This document shows positions 756-63,862 of a DNA stretch of 64,000 nt, one piece after another. The notes below the pieces were generated by a model, which ran no database searches, was not told the DNA's origin, and worked only from the letters and a program-made list of their open reading frames with translations. This stretch comes from Crambe crambe (taxonomy: Eukaryota; Porifera; Demospongiae; Poecilosclerida; Crambeidae), in NCBI GenBank assembly GCA_963924555.1, contig OZ004588.1:4030001-4094000 (forward strand). Reading direction: 5' to 3'. The translations under genes and the position numbers were made by a program. Numbering within the stretch: the stretch's first letter is position 1; each line of letters opens with the position of its first letter.

Positions 756-1901
756 TTAAATGTAATCCGGGGACATATCCTTAAGGTGAAAGTCGTCGTG
801 AGGTGCTCGTGTGTTGAAGGGGGTGGTAATAGCATAGCTGAGATTTTCATCCATTTTAGTTTCACTGTATATTGAATAATATATTATAGCAACAGAAATA
901 ATCATTGTAAAGGTGATAGCCCTCACCTTTGCTCTCCTGTGGAGTGTGTTTTGTGGGGGGTGATAGTAGCATAGCTGGGATTTTCATCCACTTTGATGTC
1001 ATCCTTAGTCCTGTAATGTAAAGATCAGGCTTAACTCTTTTTCTAATGTCATTGTACACATGACCTCTCCTTGAGTGAAGATGTCCCTCTCCTCCTGTGG
1101 TATGACCACACCCACACTACAACCACACCCACCAACCCTAAGGCCATGAAAGCTGCCAATGCCCCAAGACCTCCAGCTAATGCTGTGCAGTCCTTTTGTT
1201 GCTGGTTTTTCCCTGTCTCTCGGGCATTCCCAGTAGCTGCAGGTGGTATGGCAGTGCAGGGGGACTGCTGTGTCATGCTAGGTACCACCTCAGTACACTG
1301 CTCCCTCTGTATCACTGTTTGGGTCAGTTCACGTGTGACAGTTTCAGTAAAGGTTTCAATAACAATAGTCCCTGTATGTCAGTATTTTACATGTGTATGG
1401 ACATTATGAATGGCATTTACTTACTGCATGCCACTCCTCCAAAAATACATCCATTGTTATCTAGTTCATATGTGCAATCAAAGAGTTTCGTCTCATTCCC
1501 TGAGCATTTAAAGTTAGTGAGTCCTCCTTCCATATCCCAACCATAGTGAAAGTATTCTTCTCCTGTACACAGTAACAATGTGATGCATGTATATAATATA
1601 TAGAACTATGAACTTACCTCCCTCAGGGAATCCTAACTGCCTGCATACCACCTTGGCATTCATCCTATTCCAATTGGTATTGCATACTGCCCTCCAGTGA
1701 GTGCCATTACATATATTTATGTGACCTGCTGTAAGATTCTGTCCATTTCTCCCTCTCAGTCTAAGGTCACCTTGTTCCTGGCAATCTTCAAGAGCATTTG
1801 ATACTGTGGAGTATAGAGTTAGTATCAACTATGACAAGATAGAGTAGCCTACTTAGTGGATGTAGCAGTAGTAGCCACAGCAGCAAGACCCAGACCTTCA
1901 T
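756..1901 (-). CDS. Class C SRCR receptor with Tyr-motif tail exons
   Basis: Predicted type I membrane receptor, 290 aa in six exons: 1853-1901 (signal peptide MKVWV plus Leu-rich core), 1618-1803 and 1425-1562 (one SRCR domain, split after FPEG), 1065-1371 (stalk, TM), 927-1010 and 756-864 (tail). The SRCR domain keeps eight Cys. The stalk has the family pattern REQCTEVVPSMTQQSPCT. The TM is a long Leu/Val/Gly helix followed by YHRRRG. The first tail exon carries VDENPSYATI, an NPxY-type PTB site with YxxI. The last carries MDENLSYAI and ends SPDYI-stop. Exons 2-3 are phase 1-1 and the tail exons enter in phase 2. The TM exon donor is GTCATG, which is weak, so the tail join is the least certain step. 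All other junctions are GT-AG. An ETS-like ACAGGAAGTG lies 19 bases above the start codon. Confidence 0.8.
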
Positions 1902-1919
1902 AGCTGGCCACAAATTAAC

Positions 1920-1929
1920 ACAGGAAGTG
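1920..1929. promoter_or_regulatory. ETS-type motif ACAGGAAGTG
   Basis: The ten-base word ACAGGAAGTG lies 19 bases upstream of the ATG at 1901. The same word recurs upstream of several other receptor genes in this window. It contains the GGAA core bound by ETS-family factors. The regulatory role is inferred from recurrence and position only. Confidence 0.35.
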
Positions 1930-2825: not shown

Positions 2826-3447
2826 AACTGGAGGAGTGTGTGTACAGATTACTGGGGTAGGCCAGGTGCCAAGGTAGTGTGCAGGCAGTTAGGATTCCCT
2901 GAAGGAGGTAAACTGCCACAGCAGCTAAGCTCTGGATTTTTTTACAGTCCTGAGAAGAATACTTTGCTTTTGGCTGGGAAAGAAATGGGGGACTCTATAA
3001 CTTTATGTGCTCAGGGAATGAGACGAAACTTGTTGATTGCACATATCAAACATATCTTGACAATAGAGGATGCATTTATGCAGGAGTGGCATGCAGTAAG
3101 TAAATGGCCCATCCTATTGTCACAAATGACATTACAGTCAGTACTCTGTACTAATTCACTAGTGGTTGGTTTCTGCCACTAGTGAATCCCATTACTAAAT
3201 GTGGTCACTGCTATACTGTATGGCAATACAGGGATCATTGTTACACTGAGCATTCCAGTGGCTACCACTATCACCAGTGGCTACCACTATCACCAGTGGC
3301 TACCACTATCACCAGTGAACTGATCCAAACAGTGACAAGTCAAGACCAACAACAAAAGGACTACATAGCATTGGCAGGAGGTCTGGGGACGTCAGCAGTT
3401 CTCATGACCCTAGGGTTAGTGGGTGTGACTTTAGTGTGGGTGTGTTC
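2826..3447 (+). other. Inverted segment inside the second receptor locus
   Basis: This block reads as SRCR 3' half, second SRCR exon and stalk/TM on the plus strand, although the gene around it is minus strand. The left junction joins TM codons (..gcatgaccaca) to SRCR codons (aactggaggag). The right junction joins TM codons (gtgtgggtg) to SRCR codons (tgttccattgc). A shared ACA/TGT at the two ends suggests a microhomology-mediated inversion of about 620 bp. Confidence 0.75.
3251..3308 (+). repeat. 19-bp tandem triplication in a stalk exon
   Basis: The unit cagtggctaccactatcac is repeated three times head to tail inside the inverted stalk exon. With a single copy the frame runs correctly into ELIQTVTSQDQQQK and the TM. 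The extra 38 bases shift it and create an early stop. The locus was therefore hit by both an inversion and a frame-breaking repeat expansion. Confidence 0.75.
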
Positions 3448-3654
3448 CATTGCATATCTCTATGCGACCTGCTGTGAGGTTCTCTCCATATCTCCGTCTC
3501 AGTCTGACATCACCATGTTCCTCGCACATTTCAAAGGCATCTGAAGTGCAAAGTTAGTATCAACTATGACAAGATAGAGTAGAGGTGAAGACAGAGCCAG
3601 TGCCTACTTAGTAGATGTAGCAGCAGCAGCAAGACCCAGACCTTCATGGCACTA

Positions 3655-5633: not shown

Positions 5634-7440
5634 TTATATATTACTGTAGCCTGAGGAGAGGGTTATTGTGGTTTCTGGGGAGCTGGCATCAGAAACTCTT
5701 TCCTCCTCATCCTTGAGTTTTTTAAAGATCCCCTTCCCCTGGCGCTCTGGAAAGTTCCCTGCAGAGAAGTCATCGGAAATCTCCCTCTCCCTTTCATCTT
5801 CTTTCCCTCGTACTTGATAGTTCCTTTCCCCCTCTTGCTTTGTAGAGGGACCATCAATGTCATATGGAGGAGCAGTCTCTTCATCAGTGGGCATGCCTGG
5901 AGTACCAAGGGAGGTATCTTGGACTGTGGGGTGTGACTGAGGGGAGTCATCGGAAGTCTCCCTCTCCCTTTCATCTTCTTTCCCTCGTACTTGATAGTTC
6001 CTTTCCCCCTCTTGCTCTGTAGTGGGACTGTCAATGTCATATGGAGGAGCAGTCTCTTCAATTGCTTGATTTTTAGATATGTCTTCATTGTCAAGGGAGA
6101 TGTTTTGGACAGTGGGGTGTGACTGAGAGGAGATATCAAAAGTCTCTCCCTCCCTTTCCTCTTTTTCTATCACAGTTTGAAAGTTTTCCTCCTGCTGCTG
6201 CTCTGGAGAGATCTGTTCTGCTGGGAGACCGTCATTCTTGATGATATCACATGCGGGGGCAGTCTCATCAACTGTGTGATTAGTGGACATGCCTGGAGTA
6301 CTGAGGCTGGTATCTTGAACAATAAAGTGTGGTTCGGAGAGGGCATCAGAAGTCTCCACCTTTTCCCTGGATCGAAAGTTTCCTTTTGCCCGCCACTCTG
6401 GAGATAGACAATCATTCTTGATGTCACATGTAGGGGCAGTCTTTTGCTTGGCAAGTTTGAGAGGACGGATTCTGTATATGCACGTGCCATAACTATATAT
6501 TTGTTGACATGGTAGGTACTGCAAACCTTTTTTTGAGGGAGGCTCTCCTGTAGCATGACCGCACCCACAATGAAACCATACCCACCAACCCAAAGGCCAT
6601 GGCAGCAGTAACTATGCACAGTCCTCCTGTCAGTGCTGAGCAATTATTAACTCTTTCTAGTATTTTCTTAGCTGCCTGTCCAGTAGCTTCAGTTACATGT
6701 CCAGTAGCTTCAGTTACATGTCCAGTAGTTTCAGTTACATGTCCAGTAGGTGCATGAGTACAGAGGGACTGCTGTGTCAAGCTAGGCACCACTTGAGGAG
6801 TACACTGCTCCCTCTGTGTCACTGTTTTAATCAGGTGATGGGTGGCAGTGGTAGGCGATGTAATCCATCGTGTTTTAGTAACAACAGTCCCTGTAAGTCA
6901 AAATGAATGTATTGTATGTACATATGCATGCGGCACTTGCTTACTGCAAGCCACTCCTCCACGGTTACATCCTCTACCAGTGTTTAGTATATGTTGGCAT
7001 TGCATTAAATTCGTCTCATTCCCTAGACAAGTAAAGTGGTATCCTCCATCCCCTACCCAGCTGCCATAGTGAAAGTATTCTTGTCCTACACACATTAACT
7101 ATGTGATGCATGCATGCTGAATACATAGAATTTACCTCCCTCAGGAAATCCTAACTGCCTGCACATCACCTTGGCAGTTCTTTCATTATAATTGTGATGA
7201 TGGCATACTGCCCTCCAGTAAAACCCATCACATATATCCATGACACCTGCTGTAAGATTTGCATCACTTCTGTCTTTCCCTATCAATCTATAACAACTTG
7301 ATCCATGGCACATATCAGCAGCATTTGATACTGTGGAGTATTGGTATCAACTATGGGATAGAGTAAAGATGAAGACAAAGGCAGTGCTTACCTAGTGGAT
7401 GTAGCAGTAACAGCCACAGCAGCAAGACCCAGACCTTCAT
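5634..7440 (-). CDS. Class B SRCR receptor with long acidic tail
   Basis: Predicted 528-aa type I receptor in five exons: 7392-7440 (signal peptide), 7136-7330 and 6945-7085 (SRCR), 6527-6890 (stalk and TM), 5634-6471 (tail). The SRCR region has nine Cys, one more than most neighbours. The stalk carries three copies of the 7-residue repeat TGHVTE[TA] before KKILERVNNCSAL. The TM is GLCIVTAAMAFGLVGMVSLW, followed by a basic RSCYRR. The 279-codon tail exon is rich in Glu, Arg and Pro. It holds two long internal repeats containing ETAPPYDID and ERNYQVRGKEDERERE, and ends SGYSNI. The terminal YSNI could serve as a YxN or YxxI SH2 site. A 55-base intron separates TM and tail here but is absent from the class B copies further along. 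Confidence 0.8.
6685..6747. repeat. 21-bp stalk minisatellite, 3 copies
   Basis: Three tandem 21-base units (ag[ct]ttcagttacatgtccagt on the plus strand) encode the 7-residue stalk repeat of the class B receptor. Copy number differs among paralogues: three here, three plus a 12-base partial at 13,364-13,438, and eight at 28,857-29,024. Confidence 0.85.
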
Positions 7441-8938: not shown

Positions 8939-10040
8939 CTATGGTATCCTTCTCCCTCCTCCCCCTTCCAGATTCCCCTCCCTCTCTGCAGGGGGACCAC
9001 CAGTCTTGATGATGTCATAATATGTAGGGATGTTCTCTTCATTCTCTTCAATTTTGTGACTAGTGGGCATGTAATCAGTGGAGCTAGCGATGTCTGACTG
9101 AGATGGGGAAATTGGGGTGTCTGAGACAATTCTGTAAGTACATATAATGTATTATGACTGCTGACACGGCAGGTATTGTTTCAATACTGACCCTTTCTTG
9201 ATAGCGGACATTCTTATTTTTCTGTAATGTAACCACACCCATGCTAAAACCACAATGACCAATCCTAAGGTCATGACAACAGTCAATCCACCCAAACCTC
9301 TAACCAGTGCTGAGCAACCGTCTCTATCTTGTGGGGTGTTTTGTGATATCTTAGCAGCAGCTGCAAGTGGTGTCACAGTGCAGGGAGCCAGAGGCACCAC
9401 CTGAGTACACTGATCTGTCTCTGTCACTGTTTGGGTTATTTCACGGGTGACGGTGGATACAGCCAATGTAGTAGTCTGTGTTTCATTAATAATAATCCCT
9501 GTATGTCAAAGTGAAAGTATTACACGCGTGTGCACATTATGAATGGCATTTACTTACTGCATGCCACTCCTGCTAAAACGCAACCATACTGAGGATCTGT
9601 GGGTGCATGCCAGCAGTCAATGAGTCTCCTCATGTCGTTCTCTTGACACCTAAACCATTCTAATCCTCCTTCCCTTCTCCAGGCGTATCGAAAGAAGTCA
9701 ACTCCTATACACAGTAACTATAATTATGATACATATATATGCTGAACTATGAGTTTACCTCCCTCAGGGAATCCTAACTGCCTGCATGCCACCTGGGCAT
9801 CCCACAAATCCCAACCTTTTTCGCATACGTTCTTCCATTCGGTCCCATTGCATAATTCTAGGCGACCTGCTCTAATATTCCCTCCAGCTCTCCCCTCCAA
9901 TCGAAGAGCACCTTGTTCTGAGCAATCTTGAGCATTTGATACTGAGGAACATGGAATCAGTATTAGAGATGAAGACAAAAGCAGTGCTTACTTAGTGGAT
10001 GTAGCAGTAGCAGCCACAGTAGCAAGACCCAGAACTTCAT
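8939..10040 (-). CDS. Class A SRCR receptor with short tail
   Basis: Predicted 292-aa type I receptor in five exons: 9992-10040 (signal MKFWV), 9759-9941 and 9558-9704 (SRCR, eight Cys), 9192-9498 (stalk, TM), 8939-9131 (tail). The stalk has TETDQCTQVVPLAPCTVTP. The TM is a Leu/Val helix ending VLAWVW, followed by LHYRKIR. The tail exon enters in phase 2 and carries TDYMPTSHK and PTYYDIIK before a Gly-rich end. If the last intron is kept, translation instead ends ..LKQYLPCQQS, a sequence also found at the same place in the three other class A genes, so two tail forms are possible. This is the oldest-looking class A copy and the only one with this long tail exon. Confidence 0.8.
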
Positions 10041-10419: not shown

Positions 10420-10497
10420 TAGATAAGCCTACAATCCACTTATAGATAGGCCTACAATCCAAGATAAGCCTACAATCCACCATAGACTAGATAAGCA
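10420..10497. repeat. Degenerate minisatellite
   Basis: Three to four imperfect copies of a unit containing gataagcctacaatccac. The equivalent arrays at about 18,940-19,015, 26,550-26,600 and 35,910-35,990 differ in copy number and spacing, so the array changes between duplicated units. Confidence 0.6.
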
Positions 10498-12850: not shown

Positions 12851-15800
12851 CTACAGATTACTATAGCCTGAGGCTCCCTCTCTTTCCACTTTTTCACTGA
12901 CAGTCTCCTCCTTCTGCCACTCCCTTTCATTTTCTTTCCCTCGTACTTGATCGTTCCTTTTCCTCTCTTGCTCTGTAGAGGGACCATCAATGTCATATGG
13001 AGGAGCAGTCTCTTCATCAGCGGGCATGCCTGGAATACCAAAGGAGGTATTTTGGACAGTAGGGTGTGACCGAGGGGAGTCATCGTAAGTTTCCCTCTGC
13101 TCCTGCTGCTCTGGAAAGTCCCCCTCTGCTTCTGCTGGGTGACCAGTCTTCCCTTCAACTCTTTGCTTAGGAAGTTTCTTCTTGGTTGGACTGAGTAGTG
13201 CATAATTATTTAGGAAGGTGGCTCTCCTGTAGCATGACCGCACCCACAATGAAACCATACACACCAACCCAAAGGCCATGGCAACAGTAACTATGCACAG
13301 TCCTCCTGTCAGTGCTGAGCAATTGTCAACTCTTTCTAGTATTTTCTTAGCTGCCTGTCCAGTAGCTTCAGTTACATGTCCAGTAGTTTCTCCAGTAGTT
13401 TCAGTTACCTGTCCAGTAGTTTCAGCTACATGTCCAGTAGGTGCATGAGTACAGGGGGACTGCTGTGTCAAGCTAGGCACCACTTGAGAAGTACACTGCT
13501 CCCTCCGTATCACAGTTTGGATCAGGTCATGGGTAGCAGTGGCAAGCAATGTAATGCTTTGTCTTTCAATAACAACAGTCACTGTAAGTCAAAATGAATG
13601 TACATATGCATGCACTTGTAAATGGCACTTGCTTACTGCAAGCCACTCCTCCACGAACACATCCAGTACTGGTGTTTAGTGTATGTTGGCAATGTAATAA
13701 ATTTGTCTCATTCCCTAAACAAGTAAAGTAGTATCCTCCATCCCTTGCATAGGTACTGGCACTGTGAAAGTATTCTTGTCCTACACACATTAACTATGTG
13801 ATGCATGCATGCTGAATACATACAATTTACCTCCCTCAGGGAATCCTAACTGCCTGCACATCACCTTGGCAGTTCTTTCATCATGATTGTTATGATCGCA
13901 TACTGCCCTCCAATGAAACCCATCACATATATCCAAGGCACCTACTATAGGATTACCTCTGCGATTTACCACTCTAGAACAACCTCGTGTTTGGCACACA
14001 TCAGGAGCAGCATTTGATACTGTGGAGTATTGAGTCATATAGTATCAACTATAGGATCAGGGTTCTGCCCACACTTGCCATTTTCAGGCCCATACCCAGG
14101 TGGGGTTCGTGGGTTTGATCAAACCCCCCTTTCAAATTGAACTTTAAATGCGAGCGCATACATCACGTGCGTCATTAAAAATTGTAGTACATTTAGAATT
14201 ATGTGCCTGAGAGAGGAAGAGAACTAGTCTAGCAAAGCCTATTGTCCAGCTTTTAGCTAGCTATAACCCACTCTTAGGATAGATCTATGGTGCCTCAAGC
14301 TATTAGCTCTGCTAAGTTCAGCTTGTATCTAAGTCTTACTGTAAAACTGTACAGGTAGAAGAAGTGATATCATCTTCATCATCTACTCGTAATCTTAATG
14401 ATTTCCCTGACTGCCTACACATGGAATTTGCGGTCAAAGTCACGTGGAAAATGATGTAATATGACGTAATCAACGTTCCATTTAGATATGGAAACCTTGC
14501 GTCTTTCATCAGACGTATTTTCTCCTTCCCCCTCCCCCTTCTTTTGCAATACGTGTATGTATGTAATTATGTAAGTGTCCAGAATTAGTGCTGCATAATG
14601 CACATGCTCCAATTGTAATCAAGCTAGACTGTTTTCTACTGCCTTTTGCCATAGAGACATTATAAGCTTATCATAGGTGCTTAGCTTATTCAAGTGCTTG
14701 TGGTAAGTATTTATAGTTTTCTATGTACAGAGCTTCCAGTCGGAACAACAACTTACATGACTCTTGTCTCTGACAGCACTATCATACAGAACAAAGATTC
14801 CATCCTTGTTGTTTCCTTACTTTTTTGAGCAGTGGTCATCCCTACATCTTTTTTCATTTCACGAAATGCTTTTTCCCTTATTATTATTATTATTATTCTT
14901 ATTATTCTTCTTAGACAACCATATCTCTCGAACCACTCAAGCTACAGCTATGATTTCTGGATAAATTCACTCCAAATTCTACCAACTACGATCTTTTCTA
15001 CTCGTTGATCCTCGTAAGAGTCGATGAAAAAGGAGACACTACGGAGCACAGCACTCGACTAATTCAATTAGGAAGCCATCTTTTCTATAATATGCATGCG
15101 CATGTATTTGATATCCAATTATTCGAAATTATGATATTACTCAGCTATCTCTAGCTAGCTAACTAGATAGCTAATGGACTACACTATCGACTCGGGGATT
15201 TTAGATTCACCAATCCATCTACCGGTAGACTCTATTTCAGCATCTTCGACCTCCAAGTATAGCTCAACAATAACACAACACCGTTTGACTCATTGATAAT
15301 CATCAGGCTGGTATGCTATTGGAGAACTATTCTTCTTTCATCTGTCCATGCATACACACATACAGAAGAATGAACTCTATACATATAAAAGAGAGGAAAA
15401 AAAGACCAGGAACAAGTAAGGGAAAAAGCATTTTGTGAAATGAAAAAAGATGTAGGGATGACCACTGTTCAAAAAAGTAAGGAAACAAGAAGGATGGAAA
15501 TGTGATCAATCGTTGTTCTGCATATCCAGCCAACAATCCCTACATATACGTCGGGTAGCTTCAGATTATAGTGTAGTAATGTACGTATATGTAGGGATTG
15601 TTGGCTGGATATACAGAACAACGATTGATCCCATTTTCATCCTTCTTGTTTCCTTACTTTTTTGAGCAGTGGTCATCCCTACATCTTTTTTCATTTCACG
15701 AAATGCTTTTTCCCTTGCTTGTTGAATAATATATTTATTTATAAGTCATGACCTGAAAGTCAGCTCGCTTGTTGAATTACTAGCTGCTAGTTACAGCATA

Positions 15801-45577: not shown

Positions 45578-45579
45578 TA

Positions 45580-48246: not shown

Positions 48247-48645
48247 GGCACTTACGTAGTTCCTTCCGAGACTATTCTTCTGCTGTGTGTATGTGCTTTA
48301 CAATGGTGTTTGGCATACTAGTGTTGTTTTAGTTTGTTTATGTTATGTGTGTGATTGATTTGGTTTTTTTGGTGTTTTTTTTTTTTCGAATGTGACCATT
48401 GGGTAAACTGAGCATGCATGCTCATCCCACAATGCTTGTGTGTGCATGTGCTTGTGTGTGTGCTGACATGTGGTACCAAGGAATACAATAATGTGGTTTT
48501 CATAACAATATATTTAAATGCACAAACACAATGGTTTAAATAACACTCTAATTATGACAACTATGTTATCATACCAAGGTTATCTATACTTTCAGTTCTA
48601 ATTACTAGTTTTTGTGTGACTGTACATGTTGTCCGAACTTGATGA
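48247..48645. other. Spacer between SRCR half and class E half
   Basis: About 400 bases between the last SRCR receptor and the first class E gene. T-rich, with a poly-T run near 48,377. No exon recognised. Confidence 0.5.
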
Positions 48646-50755: not shown

Positions 50756-51083
50756 GGTCAACTGAATTTGTATTATTAGTGAGCTAGCATTTCCTTCCCA
50801 ACTAAATACTATATAGTGAAAGTGTTTACCCTTCAGTAATGCTAACATTTTGTATTGAAATCAGTTATGTAAACACAAAATATACTGACACTTGCTGGTA
50901 AGGTAGCTGTCACATTGAAGCAGCCTTGATTCGAAACCAATGCCATGTAGTGTACTTTGAAAGTGTATAGCCGTGAATATATTTAACTCTAACAATGCCT
51001 ACCCAAAACCACACCCCATGCAACAGCTGTAAGATTGGCAGTATGAGATTATTATGAATGACTAAAGTTCAGTGTTTCACATA
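50756..51083. other. Spacer between first and second class E genes
   Basis: About 330 bases upstream of the first class E gene and downstream of the next. No exon and no copy of the ETS-type word seen. Confidence 0.45.
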
Positions 51084-52064
51084 TCACTGGTGTTGGAGAA
51101 CTGAGTAGTCCTCTGATCCTGAGAGGGAGCCTGTCCCTCTACTTTGGGTAGCAACTTCATACATCTGTGCCTCTGATGAGTCCTGCTCTAATACATGATA
51201 GATCCTTTCTTCACCTTTGTTCTTGACAATATCGTAGGTGGGGATGGCCTGTGAGTTATTAGTGGGCGTGTCATGAGGGCCAAGGGAACTATATTGAATG
51301 CAGGGTTGTGGCTGGGAATAGGTGGGGTTATCAAGTTGTACTTCAGATGTAGTGCTGGAAGTGTTGGATCTGCATAAAGAAAGCATCAAGCAAGTATATA
51401 GCATCCTGAAATTATACCATACCTTTTCAAAGTTATGGATCTCTTTCTTCTCCTGTGACATAGCCATGCCCACCCTAGTATCATGACAACCATCACTAAG
51501 GCCATGAGAGCAATTAGTGCTCCCAGGGCTCCAATTAGGGCTGTGCACTTATCGACTTTCTGTGTTTTGTCTTGTCCTTCTAGTCGGATGTTCCCATTAG
51601 CTGCAGGTGGTATGGCAGTGCAGGGGGACTGCTGTGTCCTGCTAGGCTTGATACACTGGGTAGCCACTGCCACAGGAGTACATTGTTCAGCGTGTGTGAT
51701 GGTTGAGACTATAATATCTGGAGTGCACTGTTGAGTTGCAGTGACCGTTGTAAGCACTTCTTGAGTGTTAGTGACAGTTCTCTCTACTTGTTGAGTGGTT
51801 GTGCTCACTACTTGTTGAGTGGTTGTACTGACTACTTGTTGAGTGGTTGTAACAGTCTTCATTATGTATCTAGTGGTTGTAACTGTACTCCGGTGTCTAC
51901 ACCGTCGATCTCTCATACACAATCCTGCAGTATAATGCATTATCCCCAGCACCATTATAATTGGTAATATCATGATCTATAGATAGCATACCTGGAACAC
52001 TTGATAACTGTAGTGTTATTCCAGCAATGAAGAGAAATAATGTGAGAACTTGTGACTGACTCAT
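51084..52064 (-). CDS. Class E receptor with full Tyr-motif tail
   Basis: Predicted 286-aa receptor in three exons: 51,992-52,064 (signal), 51,423-51,924 (ectodomain, stalk, TM) and 51,084-51,369 (tail). The ectodomain begins GLCMRDRRCRHRS, then Thr/Val-rich repeats of TTTQQVV type, then EQCTPVAVATQC and TQQSPCTAIPP as in the SRCR receptors. The tail carries LDNPTYS (NPxY), CIQYSSLGP (IxYxxL, full ITIM), IPTYDIV, RIYHVL, MYEVAT and a terminal EDYSVLQHQ. All junctions are clean and the total length is divisible by three. Two copies of ACAGGAAGTG lie 141 and 222 bases upstream. With the 59.5-60.5 kb gene this is the reference for the intact class E tail. Confidence 0.85.
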
Positions 52065-52587: not shown

Positions 52588-53692
52588 CTACTGCTCTATG
52601 GAGGGAATGGCTGAGTTCTTACTCAGACAGGGGACCTCATATGCCTGTGCCTCCCCTTCTACCCCGATGGGCGGGTCTTGTTCTAATATGTGACTCTCCT
52701 CACCATCCCCGACAATGATGTCATAATCTTGAGTGGCATCTTTATGAGTAGTAAGTGTGTCCTGCAGACTGTGCGAGCTGTACTGGACTGAGAGGCATGG
52801 CTGAGTAGGAGTGATAGTAGTGGAGTAGGCGGGGTTAACATGGATTCCCAATGTAGTATTGACTCTGCAAGCAACATCAAACAAAAATATTCATTTTTCC
52901 ATTTTCGGTACAAGTAGCTATACCTGACCTCTCTTGATCATTGGATTTCTCTCTCCTCCTGTGATATGACCATGCCCACCCTATGGCCATACCCACCAGC
53001 CCTAAAACCATGAGTGCTGCTAATGTCCCAAGACCTCCAGCCAGTGCTGAGCAGTTGTCGACTTCCTTTGCTTGATCTTGTCCTGTCTCTCGGGCGTTCC
53101 CAGTAGGTCCAGGTGGTGTGGCAGTGCATGTCCTACTAGGAGTACACTGTTCTGTGTGTGTGATAGTGGAGACCATTCTTTCGCCATCTGGAGTGCACTT
53201 TTGAATGTGTGTCACCATTAGTTGCTGGGTTGTTGTGATCTTTGTGGTTGGGCTGCACGGTGCAGGAATAACTAGAAATTGAATTATAGATTCCATGATG
53301 CAGGCAGACATTAAACATTTTACATTTTACATACTATAAGAATATTGTTTTCCCATTCTTTTAATAGTGATGTTGCAGGAACCTACATACATTGATAGGG
53401 TATAATAATTTCTTTCAAGTGGTGATATCAATATTTTATGTAGTTACCTGATTGTAGTTTTTCATTTAGATCAGCTCTCTCTTCACTCTTTGGACACATT
53501 TGCTTTACTGGACTTCCACTTTCATTCAGGCATGTTAGTTGCCATGTTAGTTCAGTCATACACAACCCTACACAGTTATAAATAGTTCCTTCATAATTAT
53601 TATACTCTAAGATGGTGTCAATAGCTACCTGGAATACTTGATAGATGTCCAACGGTGAAGAAAAATAGAGAAACAACTAGTGACTGGTTCAT
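52588..53692 (-). CDS. Class E receptor with frameshifted C terminus
   Basis: Predicted 267-aa receptor in four exons: 53,629-53,692 (signal MNQSLVVSLFFF), 53,448-53,567 (Cys exon, GLCMTELTWQLTCLNESG.. with three Cys), 52,929-53,271 (stalk, TM) and 52,588-52,864 (tail). The tail carries HVNPAYSTT (NPxY), SVQYSSHSLQ (the ITIM Leu is His), QDYDIIVG and QAYEVP. In SHILEQDPP the Tyr of the usual YHVL is missing. Four extra bases near the end put a stop after SIEQ, so the final YSVLQH, still readable in another frame, is lost. Compared with its neighbours this tail has lost several signalling tyrosines. Confidence 0.78.
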
Positions 53693-54807
53693 AGCTACAC
53701 CCAAGGACACTCACTGCTGGCACACTGTGGAGTAACTGACTGTGCATGCACACTATTGTCATTGTTATCTTAGCTGATTGCTAATGGCCACTAAGTTTAT
53801 TTTCAGTGCATCGAGTCATCAACTGTTGTCATAATGGGACAGAGTAGCTATCCTTATAGTGGCCTAATATATAGGTAATTAACCTCCCAATAGAGTCGAC
53901 TCATGATTATTTTATACACTCTCATTTTTTGTGATATGTGGGTCACTGTGATGCAGTGTAAAGCAATGGCTTCTCTTTCTCCACCAGAAGCCATCCAACA
54001 AGAAACACATTTCCGTACCCTCTCAGTTTCCAACTAGCAAGTGATGCACCTCCTGTTCACTGGATAGCATCATCCATACATGATCTCTCGTTATGAAGCC
54101 ATTCATAAATCTGACTTCCTCTTGCTATAGGTATTTTACATGCAGGGTAGGTCTGAAGTATTATATATTCCATTTTGATGACCACTTACCAACTATACTC
54201 CATTAAACGAAACTAGCTAAGAGAAAGACTGAAAACAAATAATTAAATGAGCATGATGAAATGAGAGAGTTCGAAAAGGTTATGGTTATGGTTCTCTAAA
54301 TGTAATAGTAAGTAGGATCAGGAGATGTGTCCCGAAGGTCATCATTGTGCTGTTGTAGGGGGTTAGTCTTGATGGAGGTGGTAGCAGCATAGCTAGGATT
54401 GGGGTTCATTTCCTCTTTCCTGCTGCATTTTGGTTTCAAAACATGTTGAATTAGTTCTTTATCAGAGTAATAGATTTGGATTACTTTATAGGAGATATAG
54501 CTTACTTTTGGTATATGTAGAGAGGTTTATTCTTTGGATGGCAGTTCTACCATTTAGCTGTTGGTATTGTACTCACCTTTGTTGCTGCATCTTAAAGAGG
54601 CCATAGCTGGGATTTTTATCTATTTCGGTCACACTGTTGATCCTGCATGGGGTATGAACTATCTCTAGCCTTGTTCTCAGGCTCTCACTGAAGAGGAAAT
54701 ATAAGTGGAAATGTGGGGGTGGCTCATACATTTCCACTTCACTGAGAGCCTAGGAAAGAGGCCTGTGGAGGGAATGACTGGGTCTTCAATCTGACTAACT
54801 GGGTGCC
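53693..54807. other. Spacer with repeat and tail remnants
   Basis: It contains a block at about 54,400-54,480 (tttcctctttcctgctgcattttgg..) that is repeated at about 56,094-56,160 and 57,728-57,790, decayed receptor 3' flanks, and a MITE at about 54,673-54,762. No intact exon. Confidence 0.5.
54673..54762. mobile_element. Short MITE next to a truncated tail
   Basis: Inverted ends agccttgttctcaggctctcact and agtgaagtggaaatg..cactgagagcctagg make a hairpin of about 90 bases. It abuts the decayed tail sequence of the 54.8-56.0 kb gene and may have replaced its end. Words of the same type occur near 7,731 and 8,503. Confidence 0.55.
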
Positions 54808-55982
54808 TCATATGCCTGTGTCTCCTAAGGCTCTACATGTATACATAGCATAGCAGCATTGAGCAAATTGTCAAGTAGTAGACACACTAACCTCTCCTGG
54901 ATAGTGGATTTCCCTCTCCTCTTATAACAAGACCACACCCATCCTAAGACCATGCCCACCAATCCTAGCGCCATGACAGCAGTCAATGCCCCCAGACCTC
55001 CAGCCAATGCTGGGCAGTTGTTGACTTGATCTTGTCCTCTCCTTTGGACGTTTCCATTAGCTGCAGTGCAGGGGGGCTGTTGTGTCCTGTTAGGCACCAC
55101 CCCAGTACACTGTCCCCTCTCTGTCACTGTGGTAACCACTGCCACAGGAGTACACTGGTTTGTGCGTGTGTTGATGGTCCTCACTATTTGTTGAGTCTCA
55201 GTATGGGTTTGAATTTCAGTGACAGTACTGGTTTGAGTCACTGGATTGCAAGTTGAGTTAGATGGTATTGCTATTATGAAGAGAAGTATTCATGTATGAT
55301 ACATCATCCCATTTTTTATTCAAGGCCCAACTGCATATATACCAAGTAGAAAATTAATAAGCACCTTAGAGAAGAAGCTAGCATAGCAACATCAAGAAGT
55401 TCAATGCAGTTGGAATATTAGTAAAGGTAATAATTTTGGTAAGGGATAGTCAAACACGTAAATAGAGTATGTATAGTGCAAATTCTCACTAAACAAAATG
55501 GCAGCTGCTATTTGTTGTTTTTTTTGTTTTTGTTTTTTTTGTTTTTTTTTTACCATAAAACATGTTCCTTTGGAGAACCAGCCTGCAATATCCTATAAGA
55601 AAATAATCAAGGCATAGTAACTGTACTAACACTACACATACTTACCTGAACTTAAGCTTATTTCAAGGTCGTTTGGGCAAGTATTATGACTCTGAAAATT
55701 TCCATTGCTACTGCATTGTATTTCCTTCTCACAATTGCATCCTGCATTGGTACGTACTTTAATCATAATAATCTACAATAGCTGTAAGTAGAACTATTCC
55801 AGTACTATGGAGAGCAGTATGAGATATAGTGTCCTGTAACTGACCAATCAGATTGCTCTATTCAGCAAGAGCTATGTTCTGATATCTATAATGGATATTA
55901 CTATAGACGTTTAAATACTTGATTGCTGTATGACTGCTCCAATGATGAGGACAAGCAGAGTAATAAATTGTGACCAATTCAT
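54808..55982 (-). CDS. Class E receptor lacking a Tyr tail
   Basis: Predicted 187-aa protein in four exons: 55,919-55,982 (signal MNWSQFITLLVLIIG), 55,646-55,741 (Cys exon, CNCEKEIQCSSNG.. with four Cys), 54,892-55,270 (stalk, TM) and 54,808-54,832 (tail stub). The stalk has QCTPVAVVTTVTERGQCT and TQQPPCT. The TM is ALTAVMALGLVGMVLGWVW with CYKRRG. The next in-phase acceptor gives only RALGDTGI-stop; QAYEAPS can still be read in another frame, so a normal tail existed. The signal exon uses a shifted donor (A/gtattt). The product would be a membrane protein with almost no signalling tail, or the gene is decaying. Confidence 0.6.
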
Positions 55983-58000
55983 AGTCCCTTTGTTCTGTAA
56001 CGTACTACTAAGGTGACTGAAGTAGTTAATGTGAACTCGGAAACATTGAGATTGCCATAATTATAGCTAGTTAGAGTAGCTTTAGATCGGGTTCATTTCC
56101 TCTTTCCTACTGCATTTTGGTTTCAAAACATGTTGAATTAGTTCTTTATCAAGGTGGCAAGGCACAACTGTTTTGTAGGAGATATAGTTTACTTTTGGTG
56201 TGTGTAGAGAGGTTAACTCTCACTCTTAAAAAGCATGCTGTTTATGAAGGAAATGATGTATTCATAATGGGTACCCAGGACTCAAGCACATTCTTAGCAC
56301 ATTGGCTTTGTTATATGAACAACATACTGGCCTCTTTGAGAACGAGGCTACAATGGAGGAGACTGGAGTGATTGATTGATTGCATATCAGCAAACTATGA
56401 CCTTATCAGCTCTCTATGTTATTGTATGCAAGTGCAGATATTTTAGTTCGTATAATAATTCTTTATGCACTTGTATAATTATAGTGGTCTAGTATAGGGG
56501 TAACCCCCAATAGTATGGTTAGTATTTGCACACTTTTGTCTCAAAGTGATGTGTGGGTTACTGTGAGCACACTACTATAACAATGGCTTCTCTTTCTCCA
56601 TCAGAAGCCATCCAACATTAAGCTACCCTCTCAGTTTCAAACTAGCATTGATACACCAGTTAATTTACATTCAGGATAGGTCTAAATAATAGTTAGACAC
56701 CGAGGCCATGAATCTACGGGATTTAGAAACCTGAAGGCCCTTGGGCTGTAGAGGCCGAGCGAAGCGAGGCATCTACCCAAGGGCCTGAAGGTTTCTAAAA
56801 CCGTAGATTCTATTGGCCGAGGTGTCTAACTCATTTAGACTATATGCGTGCGCATGTAGTTACCATTAGTTACCTTGAGAGAATATTAATCTTCATGGCT
56901 GAACTAGACGACTTTTTCCCCTCGTTCTTGTCAGCAGCAAGGTCAGAGGTGAAGAGGAACTGGGTGTGGCTGACCTTCTGTTGGCTTCTAATGAATCGTT
57001 TGTCGGCGATGAAAAGCTTCGTAATGCAAGCTAAGTTGAAACTACGCTTGGAAATATGAACTTACTATGAACTTACTATGAACTTACTATGCCGTCTGCA
57101 CTACTTTCAGTACCTTTTTAGTCTTATTTTAGCTTCGTAATGCAAGCTAAGTTGAAACTACGCTTGGAAATATGAACTTATATGAAATATGAACTTACTA
57201 TGCCGTCTGCACTACTTTCGGTACCTTTTTACTCTTCTTTTAGCTTTGGTTGGAGCTTCCTAACACCAGAATACAAGAAACTAGCTTCTCTCCAACTTAA
57301 GTTCGAAACCCCGCCCACTATCTTTACCGTTCAAGTTATCATTGTTGCTATTGTATCCAAGCTAAAAATGCAGTTTGTGGTTTTGCTTTCTAAGTGCCTG
57401 GGGCTATTGTGGTTTTGAGTTCTAAGTGCCTTAGGATTTTGTGGTTTTGTGATCTAAGTACTTATGTAGAAACTTGCAACTGACCAATCAAATTGCTCTA
57501 TTCAGACTAGGTATAGTCTAAGTAGGTTTATTTCATTGCATCGGTGTACTGTAATTTTTAATTTTCATTGTATTATTAACAATAAAACTAGCTAGCAATT
57601 GAAGAGGGAGTACTGGTAGTTCATGGAGGTCATGGTTATGGTGCAGGACTAGGAAATGCGTTCCGAAAATGCTGTGCTGTTGTTTGTCATGATGGACAGG
57701 AGGTGGTAGCATAGCTAGATGTAGGGTTCATTTCCTCTCTCCTATTTTTGGTTTCAAAAACATATTGATCAGAGTAACAAGACAGTAAAGGCACAAATGT
57801 TTTCGGAGATACAACTTTGCTTTTGGCATGTAGGGAGGTGTCATTCTCTATTGTGTCCTTATTTTGGAGGATCCTTTGGAAGGTCCTTTGGAGGGTCCTT
57901 TGTTGGAGGTTCTACTGTATAACTTGGTAGTGTTTATTGTTGTGTCTTGAAGAGGCCATAGTTGGGATTTTTTGGTCACACTGTTGATCCTGCATTATCT
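55983..58000. other. Spacer with hairpin element and local duplications
   Basis: Holds the palindromic element at 56,696-56,831, a direct duplication of about 115 bases (57,017-57,130 and 57,131-57,245, containing gcttcgtaatgcaagctaag) and copies of the 'tttcctctttcct' block at about 56,094 and 57,728. A MITE end (ggaggttctactgta) is near 57,905. No exon recognised. Confidence 0.5.
56696..56831. mobile_element. Near-perfect palindromic hairpin element
   Basis: Begins TTAGACACCGAGGCC and ends GGCCGAGGTGTCTAA. The arms of about 55 bases pair almost completely (..AGAAACCTGAAGGCCCTTGGG) around a loop containing ggccgagcgaagcgaggc. No coding sequence. It is a compact hairpin MITE flanked by the sequence of a local spacer. 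Confidence 0.75.
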
Positions 58001-58058
58001 CTTGAGGTGATGCATGTATAGATACTGACCCTTTCTACCTTCTCTGGCATGACCACAC

Positions 58059-59098
58059 CTATTCTAGAACCATACCCACCAACCCTTGAGCTAACAGTCC
58101 CCCCAAATTTCCACCAAGGGCTGTAAATTCTTCAGCATTTCCTCCAACTTCAAAGTTAACCAGTGAGATGTATGTCACAGTGGTTGTCATGGAGTGTGGT
58201 TCCACTGTGTAAGTGACAGTAATTACCTCTATTTGTGTGGGGTGTGATCTCACCATGTACGTGATGGTTGCCACGGATATGGTGTTGCTGGATGTGTGAC
58301 GGTGGTTCTCACTAGGTGTGATGATTCCACCAAATATTGTGTGATAGTGGTCACTATTTATGTGAAACTGCTTCACTGATGAATAGATATCTGCACAGAA
58401 GAAAGTCATCTCACTGATGAATAGATATTGTACCTGCACAGAAGAAAAGCAAGGAAATTAAGAACAGGAAAAGCCTCATACAGAAACTGGCAATTAGTTT
58501 ATTTGCTTTCAAATAGTGCACACTATGCGATATTGACTGAAAGCAAGCTTGTACTGCAACTCTTTATGTTGGAGCCAATAGCTGCTCTCTGAATAGAGCA
58601 TGTGCATTTCATCCAAAAAAAGAGATCAAAATGGGCCCATGATTACAGAGCAGTATAGACATAGATGTCATGAATTGTGCATGGGCTTGCTCTTGTACTC
58701 CAGAATGGTTTTGATACTGTGCTTGAAGCGGCAATACCCTAAAGAATAGACAAAATAATAGTAAATTGTGCTGTACTTTATTCTTATATTCCAGGAATTT
58801 TGATACTATATTTGAATCTTAAAGGATAGACAAATAATAATGGAGACTAAAGTATTTACAAAGCACAATGTACCCAAGCTTAGTTGATGTAATCATTTTG
58901 GAGCATGTAGTAGTACTGTGATATTTGGACTGCTAGCTACACTGTACTTTAATAGCATCCTGCACATGCAGATACACACGCAGTCATTCATCTGTATCAC
59001 AGATTATCTGAATGAGTATTTTTACCTGCTGAACTTCTTTGCTGTCCATGATTAGAATCATCACCAGTAGAGTGTGGACTAGTATTCATGGCCAACAT
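58059..59098 (-). pseudogene. Class E receptor relic
   Basis: A stalk of TVTYTVEPHSMTTTVTY type leads into a shortened TM (FTALGGNLGGLLAQGLVGMV) and then a stop; the expected GWVWSC follows out of frame. The region upstream holds a local duplication of ttcttctgtgcag. A degraded signal exon is near 59,041-59,098 (LVHTLLVMILI, out of frame with its ATG). No tail exon was found. Confidence 0.65.
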
Positions 59099-59463: not shown

Positions 59464-60451
59464 TCACTGGTGTTGGAGTACTGAGTAGTCCTCAGCTGTT
59501 GGAGGGCCTGTTGGTCTAATTTTGGTGGTGACTTCGTACACCTGTGTCTCCAATGGGTCTTGCTCTAACACGTGGTAGATCCTTTCCTCACCATTCTGAT
59601 TGGCATGGGGAACTCGAGTAAGTGTATCACGAGGGCCAAGTGAACTGTATTGGACCAAGGGGGGTGACTGTGAATCATTGTAGGTGGGGTTATCAAGTTG
59701 TATTCCTGATGAAGTGCTGGAGGTGTCAGATCTGCAAACGATACAATAATAATAATAATTATAGTGAATATCGAATTATATTCACCTTTTCGAAACGGTG
59801 GATTTCACTCGTCTCAATCTCCTACTACATGACCACAACCATCCCAGAACCACACCCACCAGCCCCAAGGCCATTAGAGCTGCCAATGCCCCCAAACTTC
59901 CAGCCAGGGCTGTACATTTGACGGCTTCTTCTTGATCTAGCCCTGTCCTTCTGACATTCCCAGTGGCTGCAGGTGGTGTCACAGTGCACTGTTCCCTATG
60001 TGTCACTGTGGTAACCACTGGCATAGCAATATCTGGAGTACATTGTGGAGTTGCAATGACTGTTTTCACTATCTCTTGAACGTCTGTCACAGTAGTCTTT
60101 ACTTCATGGATGCTTGTGCTCACAACTTGTTCAGTTTGAGTGACAGTGCTAACTACATGCTCAGTTGCAGTGACAGTTCTCTTTACTTCTCGAATGCTGA
60201 TACTTGCCACTTGTTGAGTGTATGTGACTGTACTGACTAGTTCTTGAGTTCTTACAACAGTGCTTACTACTTTTTCAATGCAGTGCCCAGGGCATGGCTT
60301 TGGCCTCATACATAGCCCTGCATAATAATTATATGCATAATTCTGTTATAATGGTAGCAAGTTTTCTTTTAAACATACCTGGAATACTTGATAGCAGTAT
60401 GACTGCTCCAGTAATGTAGAGAAGTCGAGTGAGAACTTGTAACCGGTTCAT
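59464..60451 (-). CDS. Class E receptor with full Tyr-motif tail
   Basis: Predicted 290-aa receptor in three exons: 60,379-60,451 (signal MNRLQVLTRLLYITGAVILL), 59,786-60,317 (ectodomain, stalk, TM) and 59,464-59,731 (tail). The ectodomain starts GLCMRPKPCPGHCIEK and continues into about 100 residues of Val/Thr-rich repeats (VVSTVTQTEQVVSTS type). It then has REQCTVTPPAATGN and a TM of LAALMALGLVGVVLGWLW. The tail carries LDNPTYND (NPxY), LVQYSSLGP (VxYxxL, ITIM), RIYHVL, QVYEVT and a terminal EDYSVLQHQ. All junctions are GT-AG and in phase. ACAGGAAGTG lies 185 bases upstream. Confidence 0.85.
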
Positions 60452-61759
60452 AGTTTGCTTGTAGCTATAAACTCACATTCACTCAACCATAGATAAAACT
60501 GGGCACACAATCTAATCAATTTCCCCGTATCAGTAATACTATTTATACAAACACTACTGACTTTATGACTAAATACCATAATAAAGCTATGTAGCCAGCA
60601 GGTCCATTCATAGAGTCACCACAACAGTAGACCATACAGGAAGTGTGTGTGTGTGTGTGTATTGCATGCAGTTGTTGGTTTGCCTTCAAGTGCATTCATT
60701 TACCACAAGCCTAATAAAGCAGGCGCAAGCATTCCATGTGTGCAGATATTTCCGTGTGCATTCACAGATATTTCATGGCCTTCACAGATATTCCATGTGC
60801 ACTATCATTCACGTTCCATATGTACTATATATAACCTTTGCAGATATTCCATGTGCACTATAATTATAGCCTTCATAGATACTCCATGTGCATTATATGA
60901 CTCAGGGTTTCATACAGAGGTAGGGTCTAAGGGGCTTCCTGGGATTCAAGTTTCCCCACCCCAGAAATTTCTACACCTTTTTCAGTCGCATCTCTAAAGC
61001 GGTCACTTAAAATTTGCTTGAAGTTAATGTACAGTGATTGTGATGTATTGTTGGAGCCTCCGAAGAGAAACTTGCTTTGAAGAGCCCATGCAGCCAGACT
61101 GCTTTGGTATGAGTGGGTGTAGTCATGCAAAATTTCTTGACCTATCAAACTCTCAGTTCTTGTTTGACCATGGGAACTAGATGTTTGTACTTGTATCTTG
61201 TATCTTGGTAAGTGTCTCAAAGTGGCTTTGTTTTCACTGCAAAATGGCTTTGCTTTCTCAACAAAAACTATTGATGGGTTTAGCTGAAGGTGCTTTTTTT
61301 TTTTTTTTTTTTTTTTTGAGTAGAATTCTGGCCCAGATTTTAAAAAAAAAACAAAAAAAAACCAGGCCTGCCTTTTCTTTGAACCTGGGCATGCTGTGCT
61401 GACTCAGAAAAATGTGTTGATGATGTAATCACTGCATTCTTAAGCTGCTGACCATAAGTCACACCATCCGACTCATTTTATCACTGACCCCTCATATGCA
61501 GTATTTTGGGGGGAAACATCTCCATATTTTTTTTCATAATGGATATGGGGGGAGTGGTGGGAGGAGTGGGGGCTGATAATTATTAATGTAAACTTTAGTC
61601 TTGAATAAAAATATTTGATACCAAACATATATACATTATGATCATAACATTGAGAGTGTGAGTAATATAATTCATGTGCTTTGTGTATCTTCACTTCAAA
61701 TGTTTATGAGATGAAATTGAGCTTATCTTTTGACAATTCTTTTATCTTGATGCGTGTAG
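60452..61759. other. Spacer upstream of a class E gene
   Basis: Contains the ETS-type word at 60,636-60,645, a (gt)n tract near 60,645-60,660, several imperfect copies of 'cagatattccatgtgcac' (60,742-60,890) and a poly-T/poly-A stretch near 61,296-61,360. No exon recognised; open frames here are low-complexity. Confidence 0.5.
60742..60890. repeat. Imperfect tandem repeat of cagatattccatgtgcac
   Basis: Five or so diverged copies of a unit built on 'cagatattccatgtgca' and 'cttcacagata', spaced 30-50 bases. It lies in the upstream region of the 59.5-60.5 kb gene. No function assigned. Confidence 0.5.
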
Positions 61760-63862
61760 TCACTTGTGCTGGAGTACAGAGTACTGCTCTGTGGAGGAAA
61801 TGGCCGAGTCTTTAATCTGACTGGGGACCTCATATGCCTGTGGTTCCCCTTCTACCCCAATGGGCGGGTCTCGTTCCAACATGTGATAGATCCTCTCCTC
61901 ACCATCCTTGCTAATGATGCCATGGTTACCAGCAGTATCTTCATGGGTGTGATTAGTAGGTGTGTCTTGAGGACCATGGGAGCTGTATCGGACTGGGGGA
62001 CATGGGGTGCTTGAGGAGTAGGTGGGATTATGAAGCTGTGTCTCATTATCGGCTCTGCATGTTTACATAACAGAATTATTGTAGTCTTTAAGTAGTCAAC
62101 ATACTAACCTTTCTTGGATAGTGGATTTCCCTCTCCTCCTACAAGACCACGCCCATCCTAAGATCACACCCACCAACCCTAGGGCCATGACGACAGTCAA
62201 TGCCCCCAGACCTCCAGCCAGTGCTGGGTAGTTGTTGGCTTGATCTTGTCCTCTTCTTTGGACGTTTCCATTAGCTGCAGGTGATGTGACAGTACAGGGG
62301 GGCTGTTGTGTCCTGTTAGGCACCACCTCAGTACACTGTCCCCTCTCTGTCACTGTGGTAACCACTGCCACAGGAGTACACTGATTTGTGTGTGTGTTGG
62401 TGGTGCACTGCTGACTGATGGTCCTCACTATTTGTAGAGTCTCAGTGGAAGTACTGGTTTGAATCTTAGTGGTGGTATGGGTTTGAGTCACTGGATTGCA
62501 AGTTGAGTTAGATGGTATTGCTATAAAGAGAAGTGTTTATGTATGACACATCATCCCTATAATTTTTTATTCAAGGCCCAACTACATATATACCAAGTAG
62601 AAAATTAATAAACACCTTGTAGAAGAAGCTAGCATAGCAGCATCAAGAAGTTCAATGTAGTTGGAATATTCAGTAAAGGTAATAATTTTGGTAAAGGGTA
62701 AAGTGGCAGCTGCTATTATTTAATTTCCTACTTGGTTTTTATTTATTTATTTATTTACTTATTTTTTCAAGACTCGACCGCATACTAAGTAGAAAAAATA
62801 TAAGTCTTATTCATATTTACAATGTATGATTTGTTTTACATTACAGATATGTACTGAGAGAAGCTGTCCAGGCAATCATTAAAAAAAATTTTTGTAGCAA
62901 GTTAACAGGTGAAAGGTCAAGAAGCACAACTCTACTCTCTCACTACTGTCCCAAGTCACAGATTATTGAAGCTGGAAGGCCATAACCTGATAAAAATAGG
63001 AAACATTTCCATAATACAAGCAGTTGATTATGACCTAGCTGCTTTTTGTCAGCTATTAAGCTGACTCACCTGAACCACATAATGCCTGTACACAAGTCTC
63101 ATCTCTGTCTGCAATCAAGGCTTGCCGCTACAGGAGAAAGCTAAAGAACTCTGCTTGCATGTGTTCTTAGATTGCATGGTAAAGATCGTCAATATGGAGA
63201 CAGTAGTATAATTAGTAAAGCTGACTAGATATACATCTGAACCACATAACGCCTGTACACGCTGCTGCTTAGAGTCTCATCTCTGTCTGCAATCAAGCTT
63301 GCTGCTACTAGTCTACGTACAGGAGAAACTCTGCTTGCACGTGTTCTTAGATCGTATGGTAAAGATCGTCAACATGGAGACAGTAGTACAATTTCCGACC
63401 TGATGCGCAGTCCAAAACAAAGTAGAGTTAGGCGCTCTAAGTTAATAGCATGGAGAAGGACGAAGTTGCTTTAGAGATCTGTGATGGCAGCGAAGCGCTG
63501 AGGTACTCAGGGAAGGATCGCGCTTTGATTATTTACATTACGTATTTCTTTTTCTTTTTTTCTACTTGTATGTGATATGTAATTTTTTCTACTTAGTATG
63601 TTGTTTTTTTTCTACTTAGTATGTAATATCTACTTAGTATGTAATTTTTACCATAATAATAATAATACTCCATGTTCTTTCGGAGTACCAGCCTGCAATA
63701 TCCTATAAGAAAATAATGAAGGCATATAACTGTACTAACACTACACATACTTACCTGAACTTAATCTTGTTTCAAGGTCATTTAGGTTTGGGCACATATC
63801 ATTATAACTTTGAAAATCTCCATTGTTACTGCATTGTATTTCCTTCTTGCACTTCATGCATC
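61760..63862 (-). CDS. Class E receptor, signal exon not found
   Basis: Exons: 63,755-63,862 (Cys exon, CMKCKKEIQCSNNG.. with four Cys), 62,109-62,520 (stalk, TM) and 61,760-62,054 (tail). The first two closely match the gene at 54.8-56.0 kb, so the two are recent duplicates. The tail is full length: LHNPTYSS (NPxY), PVRYSSHGP (the ITIM Leu is His), RIYHML, QAYEVP and a terminal EQYSVLQHK. The intron between the Cys exon and the TM exon is enlarged to 1.2 kb by a local tandem duplication (63,070-63,392). Upstream, only a fragment of a signal exon (LVITGTVL, then a stop) is visible before the window ends, so the 5' end is either broken or incomplete. Confidence 0.7.
63070..63392. repeat. Tandem duplication of about 160 bases in an intron
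   Basis: Copy one (about 63,070-63,212) and copy two (about 63,237-63,392) share tctgaaccacataa..gcctgtacac, gtctcatctctgtctgcaatcaag and ggtaaagatcgtcaa..atggagacagtagta. The second copy has short insertions. No coding sense. Confidence 0.75.

Follow-up and report, generated by a model that had tools for sequence, protein, structure and literature searches.

A 64,000-nucleotide stretch of chromosome 8 of the sponge Crambe crambe (OZ004588.1, contig C11 in our numbering, positions 4030001-4094000; assembly odCraCram1.1, PMC12166358; hereafter the window) carries a cluster of putative receptor genes, nearly all on the minus strand, with twelve SRCR receptors (S1-S11 and S13) at 0.75-48.2 kb and seven SRCR-less or "class E" receptors (E1-E7, E3 being decayed) at 48.6-64 kb. 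The best overall explanation of these genes, to which we give a probability of about two in three, is a family of single-pass receptors built from three exon cassettes, the tails of which have been re-paired with different front ends by recombination. The cassettes would be a front of phase 1-1 exons (a signal peptide and usually one SRCR domain), a phase 1-2 exon encoding the stalk and transmembrane (TM) segment, and phase 2 tail exons. The assembly comprises 119 contigs and 143,139,886 bases, and the accessible text of the genome paper contains no occurrence of the term "protein-coding" (PMC12166358).

A common TM/tail block behind SRCR and SRCR-less ectodomains

A common origin is clear from an alignment of 650 bp (67% identity, E=3.5e-43) between E1 (window positions 61750-62356) and the SRCR gene S14 (C11:4027596-4028234; S14 lies outside the window, S13 inside). 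Because this alignment spans the TM exon, the phase-2 intron and the tail exon (of the class called T1 below), the TM/tail block is a case of descent rather than convergence, and both the module common to the two receptor types and its common origin, as proposed by a sequence-only reading of this DNA, are borne out. When the E region was aligned against SRCR-region DNA, the stalk/TM exon of all seven class E genes was matched (E3 in part), and no E-to-S match was obtained for the signal-peptide or ectodomain exons. Fourteen aligned TM exons were 47-90% identical to the first row. The motifs quoted in the sequence-only reading hold as consensus strings, with 3 occurrences of the strict stalk pattern EQCT..TQQ.PCT, 6 of TQQ.PCT and 3 of ALGLVGVV.

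Exon phases follow the arrangement read earlier wherever they could be scored. In all seven spliced models with GT-AG sites (S10, S11, S13, E1, E2, E5 and E6), every ectodomain exon present is phase 1-1 and the TM exon is left in phase 2; the signal-peptide exon ends in phase 1 in 6/6 models that contain one. Across the genomic loci that were fetched, on whose 73 TM matches all locus-level counts below rest (C17 clusters covered in part), 23 TM donors passed the score threshold, every one of them in phase 2, and 50 were unscored.

The identity of the SRCR domain is supported by Pfam in the three S models scanned (S13 53.4, S11 36.5 and S10 42.5 bits; cut-off 26.1), and no Pfam domain exceeded its cut-off in the four E models scanned (E1, E2, E5, E6). 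Relatives of S13 among PDB sequences include CD163/M130, CD5L and CD6. In group A of the SRCR superfamily, the domain is split over two exons and has six cysteines. Two 1-1 exons encode the domain in S10, S11 and S13, as expected of group A, and the S13 domain, as read from the model, holds seven cysteines plus one just upstream. Searches of 5.8 billion proteins returned one weak SRCR protein for S13 and, for E6, a protein encoded in the window as the sole match.

Two unrelated tail classes and their motifs

The notion of one tail common to all receptors did not survive: there are two unrelated classes, T1 and T2, both present on SRCR genes. In E4, which is closely related to E1, the T1 exon is broken and T2 exons follow in frame downstream; this suggests that both classes occur on class E as well. 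T1 tails follow the pattern ...NPTY...VQYSS.GP...TYDII/V...Y(Q/H)VL...YEVP...DYSxLQHQ-end. Among 32 T1 tails taken at E<=1e-3, NPxY was found in 26 (shuffled mean 0.8, maximum 4 in 1000 shuffles), an ITIM-like site (immunoreceptor tyrosine-based inhibitory motif, [SIVL]xYxx[LIV]) in 23 (shuffled mean 6.5, maximum 15) and Y(E/D)VP in 24, with 81 YxxL/I/V sites over all tails together (shuffled mean 28.5, maximum 47); since T1 tails share ancestry, these numbers describe conservation and not independent gains. The strict activation motif (ITAM, YxxL/I-x6-8-YxxL/I) was present in 0/32 T1 tails, and the idea of T1 as an ITAM tail was dropped on that count; a relaxed spacer of up to 12 gave 11/32.

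Each of the small phase 2-2 exons that make up T2 tails has roughly one (D)ENPSYA-like motif; S13, for instance, has two such exons and S1 several, one of them without its tyrosine. S3 was considered as a carrier of both tails and rejected, since its T1 match comes from a different, dead copy that has a TM fragment of its own. Elsewhere in the genome, the tails of two C17 receptors (L034; C17:3338104-3339006 and 3341844-3342404) repeat the unit EERVYHVLEQEPQEVK 12 and 7 times, with a period of mostly 16 residues (YxxL-x12-YxxL).

Exchange of tails between genes

Two recent cases join near-identical front ends to different tails. In the first, S13 (T2) and S14 (T1) are identical at 647/655 positions over the signal peptide (49/49), SRCR1 (182/184), SRCR2 (135/138) and most of the TM exon (281/284, within the first 285 of 307 bases); the alignment ends ahead of the tails, and the S14 tail matches nothing in S13. 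The match between S14 and S15 (85% over 1,652 bp) continues through the T1 tail, even though in its front S14 is closer to S13. In the second, the C16 genes 2877 (T2) and 2879 (T1) share a 1,196-bp stretch at 98.7% identity that runs to 27 bases beyond the TM donor. A third gene, 2868, matches 2877 at 92.7% over 1,061 bp that begin ahead of the TM exon and take in the tail, but at just 83.8% in the SRCR part. As 2877 resembles 2879 in its front and 2868 in its TM and tail, one of 2877 and 2879 must be a recombinant with a break at or near the phase-2 intron. The exchangeability of parts read from the exon phases is thus realized at the TM/tail junction in both pairs.

Tail class carries no signal on the front-half tree. 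Among 36 genes (the TM matches, out of the 73, that had an SRCR1 match, just one tail class and <45% gaps), it changes 10 times (shuffled mean 9.6). In a set of 33 genes, from which C11:4041335 (weak TM match), C11:4068361 (dead copy) and S11 were omitted, there are 8 changes (shuffled mean 8.77; 727/2000 shuffles at or below), and omission of four further weak tail calls leaves 29 genes (7 T2; tail calls at E<=1e-3) with 6 changes (shuffled mean 6.42; 900/2000 at or below).

An unlikely alternative to exchange between genes is that an ancestral gene had both tails, followed by repeated loss or alternative splicing. The gene at C10:5041078, which matches both tail classes (T2, then T1), and E4, which retains a T1 remnant ahead of its T2 exons, are both in line with such an ancestor, but their tails stand in opposite order. 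The mosaic make-up of 2877, whose TM and tail are those of a gene with a more distant front, argues for exchange instead, as do the end of the S13/S14 alignment ahead of the tails and the lack of any match of S13 to the S14 tail.

Copy number, organization and turnover

Crambe crambe carries about 100 copies of the receptor module, some of them decayed, in agreement with the lineage expansion and pseudogenes noted by the sequence-only reading. The TM/stalk query gave 104 genome matches at E<=0.01 (three of which are second pieces of one exon) and the T1 tail query 36. Four main clusters (C11:4.02-4.09, C16:2.73-2.91, C17:3.27-3.35 and C17:5.38-5.50 Mb) are accompanied by a few copies on C10 and C3. 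An SRCR1 exon lies at most 2.5 kb upstream in 58/73 TM matches, and SRCR-TM-tail is therefore the usual, and probably the ancestral, layout; the remaining 15 matches break down into six from class E, two from C16 and seven from C17, and the edge of the fetched piece cuts one of these seven. Further dense SRCR clusters (C18:1.64-1.75, 4.05-4.08 and 6.21-6.24 Mb; C20:5.27-5.78 Mb) sit on contigs without any match to the TM query of this family.

Within the window, the SRCR half is made of tandem copies at 7.6-9.4 kb spacing in which gene types X and Y alternate, with blocks up to 99-100% identical. The features are as follows.

756..1901, minus: S13, signal peptide, SRCR1, SRCR2, stalk/TM and two T2 tail exons (1853-1901, 1618-1803, 1425-1562, 1065-1371, 927-1010, 756-864; phases 1,1,1,2,2); GT-AG splices, Pfam SRCR 53.4 bits
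2424..2888, minus: receptor remnant, TM fragment and T1-like tail
2826..3451, plus: S12p, inverted receptor remnant with partial SRCR1, SRCR2 and TM
5634..7440, minus: S11, type X SRCR receptor, long tail with repeated PPYDID units; spliced model, Pfam
8939..10040, minus: S10, type Y SRCR receptor; spliced model, Pfam
12854..14020, minus: S9, type X SRCR receptor
17688..18459, minus: S8, type Y SRCR receptor
21380..22528, minus: S7, type X SRCR receptor
25301..26076, minus: S6, type Y SRCR receptor
28401..29557, minus: S5, type X, SRCR partly lost (SRCR1 match split in two, SRCR2 match 54 bp only)
34700..35471, minus: S4, type Y SRCR receptor
38050..38402, minus: dead copy, fragments of TM and T1 tail
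38935..39811, minus: S3, SRCR receptor; tail exons of class T2, the end of one mini-exon apparently being fused with the TM exon
41557..42385, minus: S2, SRCR receptor with T2-like tail (weak profile match; 76% DNA match to S1 tail exons)
42956..45148, minus: DDE transposase open reading frame between S1 and S2 (HTH_psq, Tc5 HTH and DDE_1; first 393 residues scanned with Pfam)
46252..48260, minus: S1, SRCR receptor, tail of tandem T2 mini-exons (hidden Markov model matches at 46291-46383, 46444-46503 and 46558-46617)
48649..50760, minus: E7, SRCR-less receptor with threonine-rich stalk, TM ~49019-49237, T1 tail ~48652-48936
51084..52064, minus: E6, signal peptide 51992-52064, stalk/TM 51423-51924, T1 tail 51084-51369; spliced model
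52588..53692, minus: E5, signal peptide 53629-53692, cysteine segment 53448-53567 and 53335-53382, stalk/TM 52929-53271, T1 tail 52588-52864
54299..56010, minus: E4, signal peptide near 55.95 kb, cysteine exon 55644-55757, TM 54891-55130; tail with T1 remnant at 54763-54820, followed by in-frame T2 exons as far as 54299
57850..58480, minus: E3, decayed class E copy with stops in the TM exon
59464..60451, minus: E2, signal peptide 60379-60451, stalk/TM 59786-60317, T1 tail 59464-59731; spliced model
61760..63877, minus: E1, cysteine exons 63755-63877 and 63652-63702, stalk/TM 62109-62520, T1 tail 61760-62054; signal-peptide exon just outside the window (~C11:4094176-4094245)

The transposase frame is not part of the receptors. 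A dispersed repeat at ~55805-55905, upstream of E4, has pieces 80-97% identical on many chromosomes, and it accounts for 40/43 genome matches of the E4 upstream DNA (query positions 156-256). The E5 tail ends a few residues early compared with E1 (~52588), with loss of the last YSVLQH motif.

Over 485 gene pairs (genes with both SRCR exons and TM; pairs not independent), the mean synonymous and non-synonymous differences (pS/pN) were 0.60/0.31 for SRCR1, 0.59/0.37 for SRCR2 and 0.47/0.23 for TM, with 0.55/0.31 for T1 (105 pairs). SRCR1 had a higher pN than TM in 86% of pairs, and in only 2/10 pairs within the C17:5.38-5.50 cluster. Neutral birth and death, in which motifs are simply passed on, with no function under selection, while tandem arrays recombine and decay, would fit the highly identical tandem blocks, the several dead copies and the shortened E5 tail. 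We nevertheless consider it quite improbable, as mean pN lies below mean pS in all four modules, seven models keep open frames and intact splice sites, and the tail tyrosine motifs are retained across diverged clusters.

The front end of the SRCR-less receptors

Class E is a branch of the receptor family without SRCR, and its front ends take several forms. E1, E4 and E5 (3/7 genes) have a segment of ~55-60 residues with conserved cysteines across two 1-1 exons; in E2 and E6 the signal peptide leads directly into a long threonine-rich stalk; and the front of E7 differs from both. Genome-wide, the cysteine segment matches E1, E4 and E5 only (E<=10) and the class E signal-peptide exon E1, E2 and E4 only, and the E2 stalk also finds a weak match to a C17 gene (E=0.009). 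The segment has no Pfam match, and its one match among PDB sequences, a designed protein (E=0.011), is not convincing.

These front ends could have replaced the SRCR domain or could derive from it. The second possibility, that the cysteine exons are SRCR exons eroded past recognition and that E2 and E6 lost even those, is a serious contender that we place somewhat below even odds. E5, and E1 as far as it is modelled, is laid out like the S genes (signal peptide, two 1-1 exons, TM); genes at C17:3.337-3.345 Mb have kept TM and tail with visibly degenerate SRCR exons; S5 has partly lost its SRCR within the window itself; and class E groups with the C17:3.27-3.35 genes in trees of TM plus tail (all five class E rows in the protein tree, bootstrap 74; only E2 and E6 in the nucleotide tree, 75), the TM-only tree being too short to place class E. 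Because of the like exon layout of E1 and E5, the cysteine segment in 3/7 genes and the SRCR decay in place on C17, erosion is about as possible as replacement, so that of the "two unrelated ectodomains" read earlier what stands is that class E has no detectable relation to SRCR. The comparisons with SRCR speak against erosion: the profile comparison gave a probability of 0.1, and column shuffles scored at least as high as the cysteine segment in 57/60 and 16/60 cases for the two exons (both from three sequences, with little power); the E region held no SRCR remnant above shuffles, its best scores being 4.2/7.2 bits for the two SRCR exons against up to 13.8/11.1 in 40 dinucleotide shuffles; and the signal-peptide exons of E and S genes differ in sequence and have no DNA match.

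Several points weigh against the three-cassette reading that we prefer. Genome searches with the cysteine segment, signal peptide and stalk revealed no gene from which the class E front end could have come, and the exchange documented here concerns tails, not the SRCR/class E difference. Among the ten genes labelled T2 in the 33-gene tree, three have weak tail calls (0.037 for S2, 0.059 and 0.3 for two C17 genes) and were excluded from the 29-gene test, and the presence of both tail classes at C10:5041078 allows for loss or alternative splicing. The 32 T1 tails are homologous, so that their motif counts are not independent; strict ITAMs are found in 0/32 tails and ITIM-like sites in 23/32, so that a T1 signal might be of either sign.

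Possible function and comparison with known systems

Sponge SRCR expansions have been counted before, without a signalling mechanism attached in the literature surveyed (titles and abstract openings, subscription papers falling mostly outside the search), where nothing on exchangeable tails or SRCR-less members was found. In Amphimedon queenslandica, 158/296 genes of the SRCR superfamily are in tandem arrays, and an immune role was proposed (PMC10855680). The two sponges are alike in their many tandem SRCR genes, and figure legends for Amphimedon mark signal peptides and TM segments, but its SRCR domains take three exons each versus two in Crambe crambe; in the accessible text of that paper "tyrosine" has no occurrence, and the passages available make no mention of shared tails, tail exchange or SRCR-less members (PMC10855680). 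As the Crambe crambe tails are readable, conserved and exchanged, the role of sponge scavenger receptors after binding becomes testable.

We propose that these proteins serve as receptors for microbes or particles, in uptake or in signalling. The SRCR domain or the stalk would contact microbial or self ligands, kinases would phosphorylate the tail tyrosines, and the T1 tail, with NPxY and several YxxL/I/V sites, would recruit PTB and SH2 readers in the manner of CED-1, Draper and Megf10, leading to uptake or signalling; the T2 tail would offer chiefly NPxY sites. Recombination near the phase-2 junction would keep re-pairing sensors with outputs, much as in vertebrate paired receptors, and tandem duplication and decay would turn the receptor copies over. 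An immune or phagocytic function of the family is inferred.

In Megf10, Draper and CED-1, according to the passages available of PMC8092387, PTB adaptors can bind to NPxY and SH2 kinases to ITAM/YxxL sites; Megf10 and Draper pair NPxY with an ITAM, and CED-1 pairs it with YxxL. T1 has the same combination (NPxY in 26/32 tails, 81 YxxL/I/V sites), and these receptors are further alike in being single-pass, with NPxY and YxxL/ITAM tail sites and separable ligand and signalling parts. The likeness is one of motifs; their ectodomains are EMI plus EGF-like or NIM (PMC8092387) and those of Crambe crambe SRCR or none, with no EMI or EGF-like ectodomain in the seven models scanned with Pfam (SRCR or no domain); T1 tails also differ in having no strict ITAM.

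The two pairs with different tails invite a second comparison. Vertebrate paired receptors (KIR, SIRP, PIR) combine near-identical ectodomains with different signalling tails in a fast-changing cluster; their ectodomains are of Ig or lectin type, and those members that activate depend on adaptors and charged TM residues. S13/S14 and 2877/2879 likewise have near-identical ectodomains on different tails, but both Crambe crambe tails carry their own tyrosines. A more elaborate proposal, which we offer tentatively and think somewhat doubtful, is a sponge-made paired-receptor system in which recombination near one phase-2 intron would keep re-pairing sensors with two signalling cassettes, one being the tail with NPxY and YxxL/I/V and the other a set of NPxY mini-exons that can expand. 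Tandem-SH2 proteins, themselves expanded in the lineage, would read these cassettes, and the system would include one branch that dropped SRCR and a related one in which the tail grew to 7-12 YxxL repeats. One sensor with different tails would allow different responses, and a pair of receptors that differ in their tails while their outer parts are nearly identical amounts to a natural experiment; should the outputs of the tails prove different, paired-receptor logic arose independently in an animal without adaptive immunity.

Allorecognition loci elsewhere are clusters of rapidly duplicating receptors with tyrosine motifs. The Alr complex of Hydractinia, for which allorecognition has been shown, is an invertebrate receptor cluster with Ig-like ectodomains, modular exons and tail tyrosine motifs; the Crambe crambe cluster is like it in its clustering, modular exons and tail motifs and differs in its SRCR-bearing or SRCR-less ectodomains. 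That the cluster is an allorecognition locus and not a microbe or particle receptor family would agree with its clustered, fast-duplicating receptors with tyrosine motifs, but on the single assembly at hand seems to us decidedly improbable.

Regarding candidate readers of the tails, the Crambe crambe genome has 8 PTB matches, and SH2 domains are clustered at C5:1417826-1522148, where they form an unusual array of pairs, and also at C12:1.75-1.84, C9:1.49-1.61 and C9:6.54-6.56 Mb. On C5, 18/31 neighbour distances fall within 380-800 bp (32 matches taken, 29 in the cluster and 3 at 1.655 Mb, with three at 2.058 Mb omitted), and no kinase lies inside the cluster among the matches listed (121 of 1944 kinase candidates scored). 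One of the C5 pairs, with no kinase in the 1 kb read, forms a tandem SH2 in a single 273-aa frame, for which the best PDB match is SHP-2.

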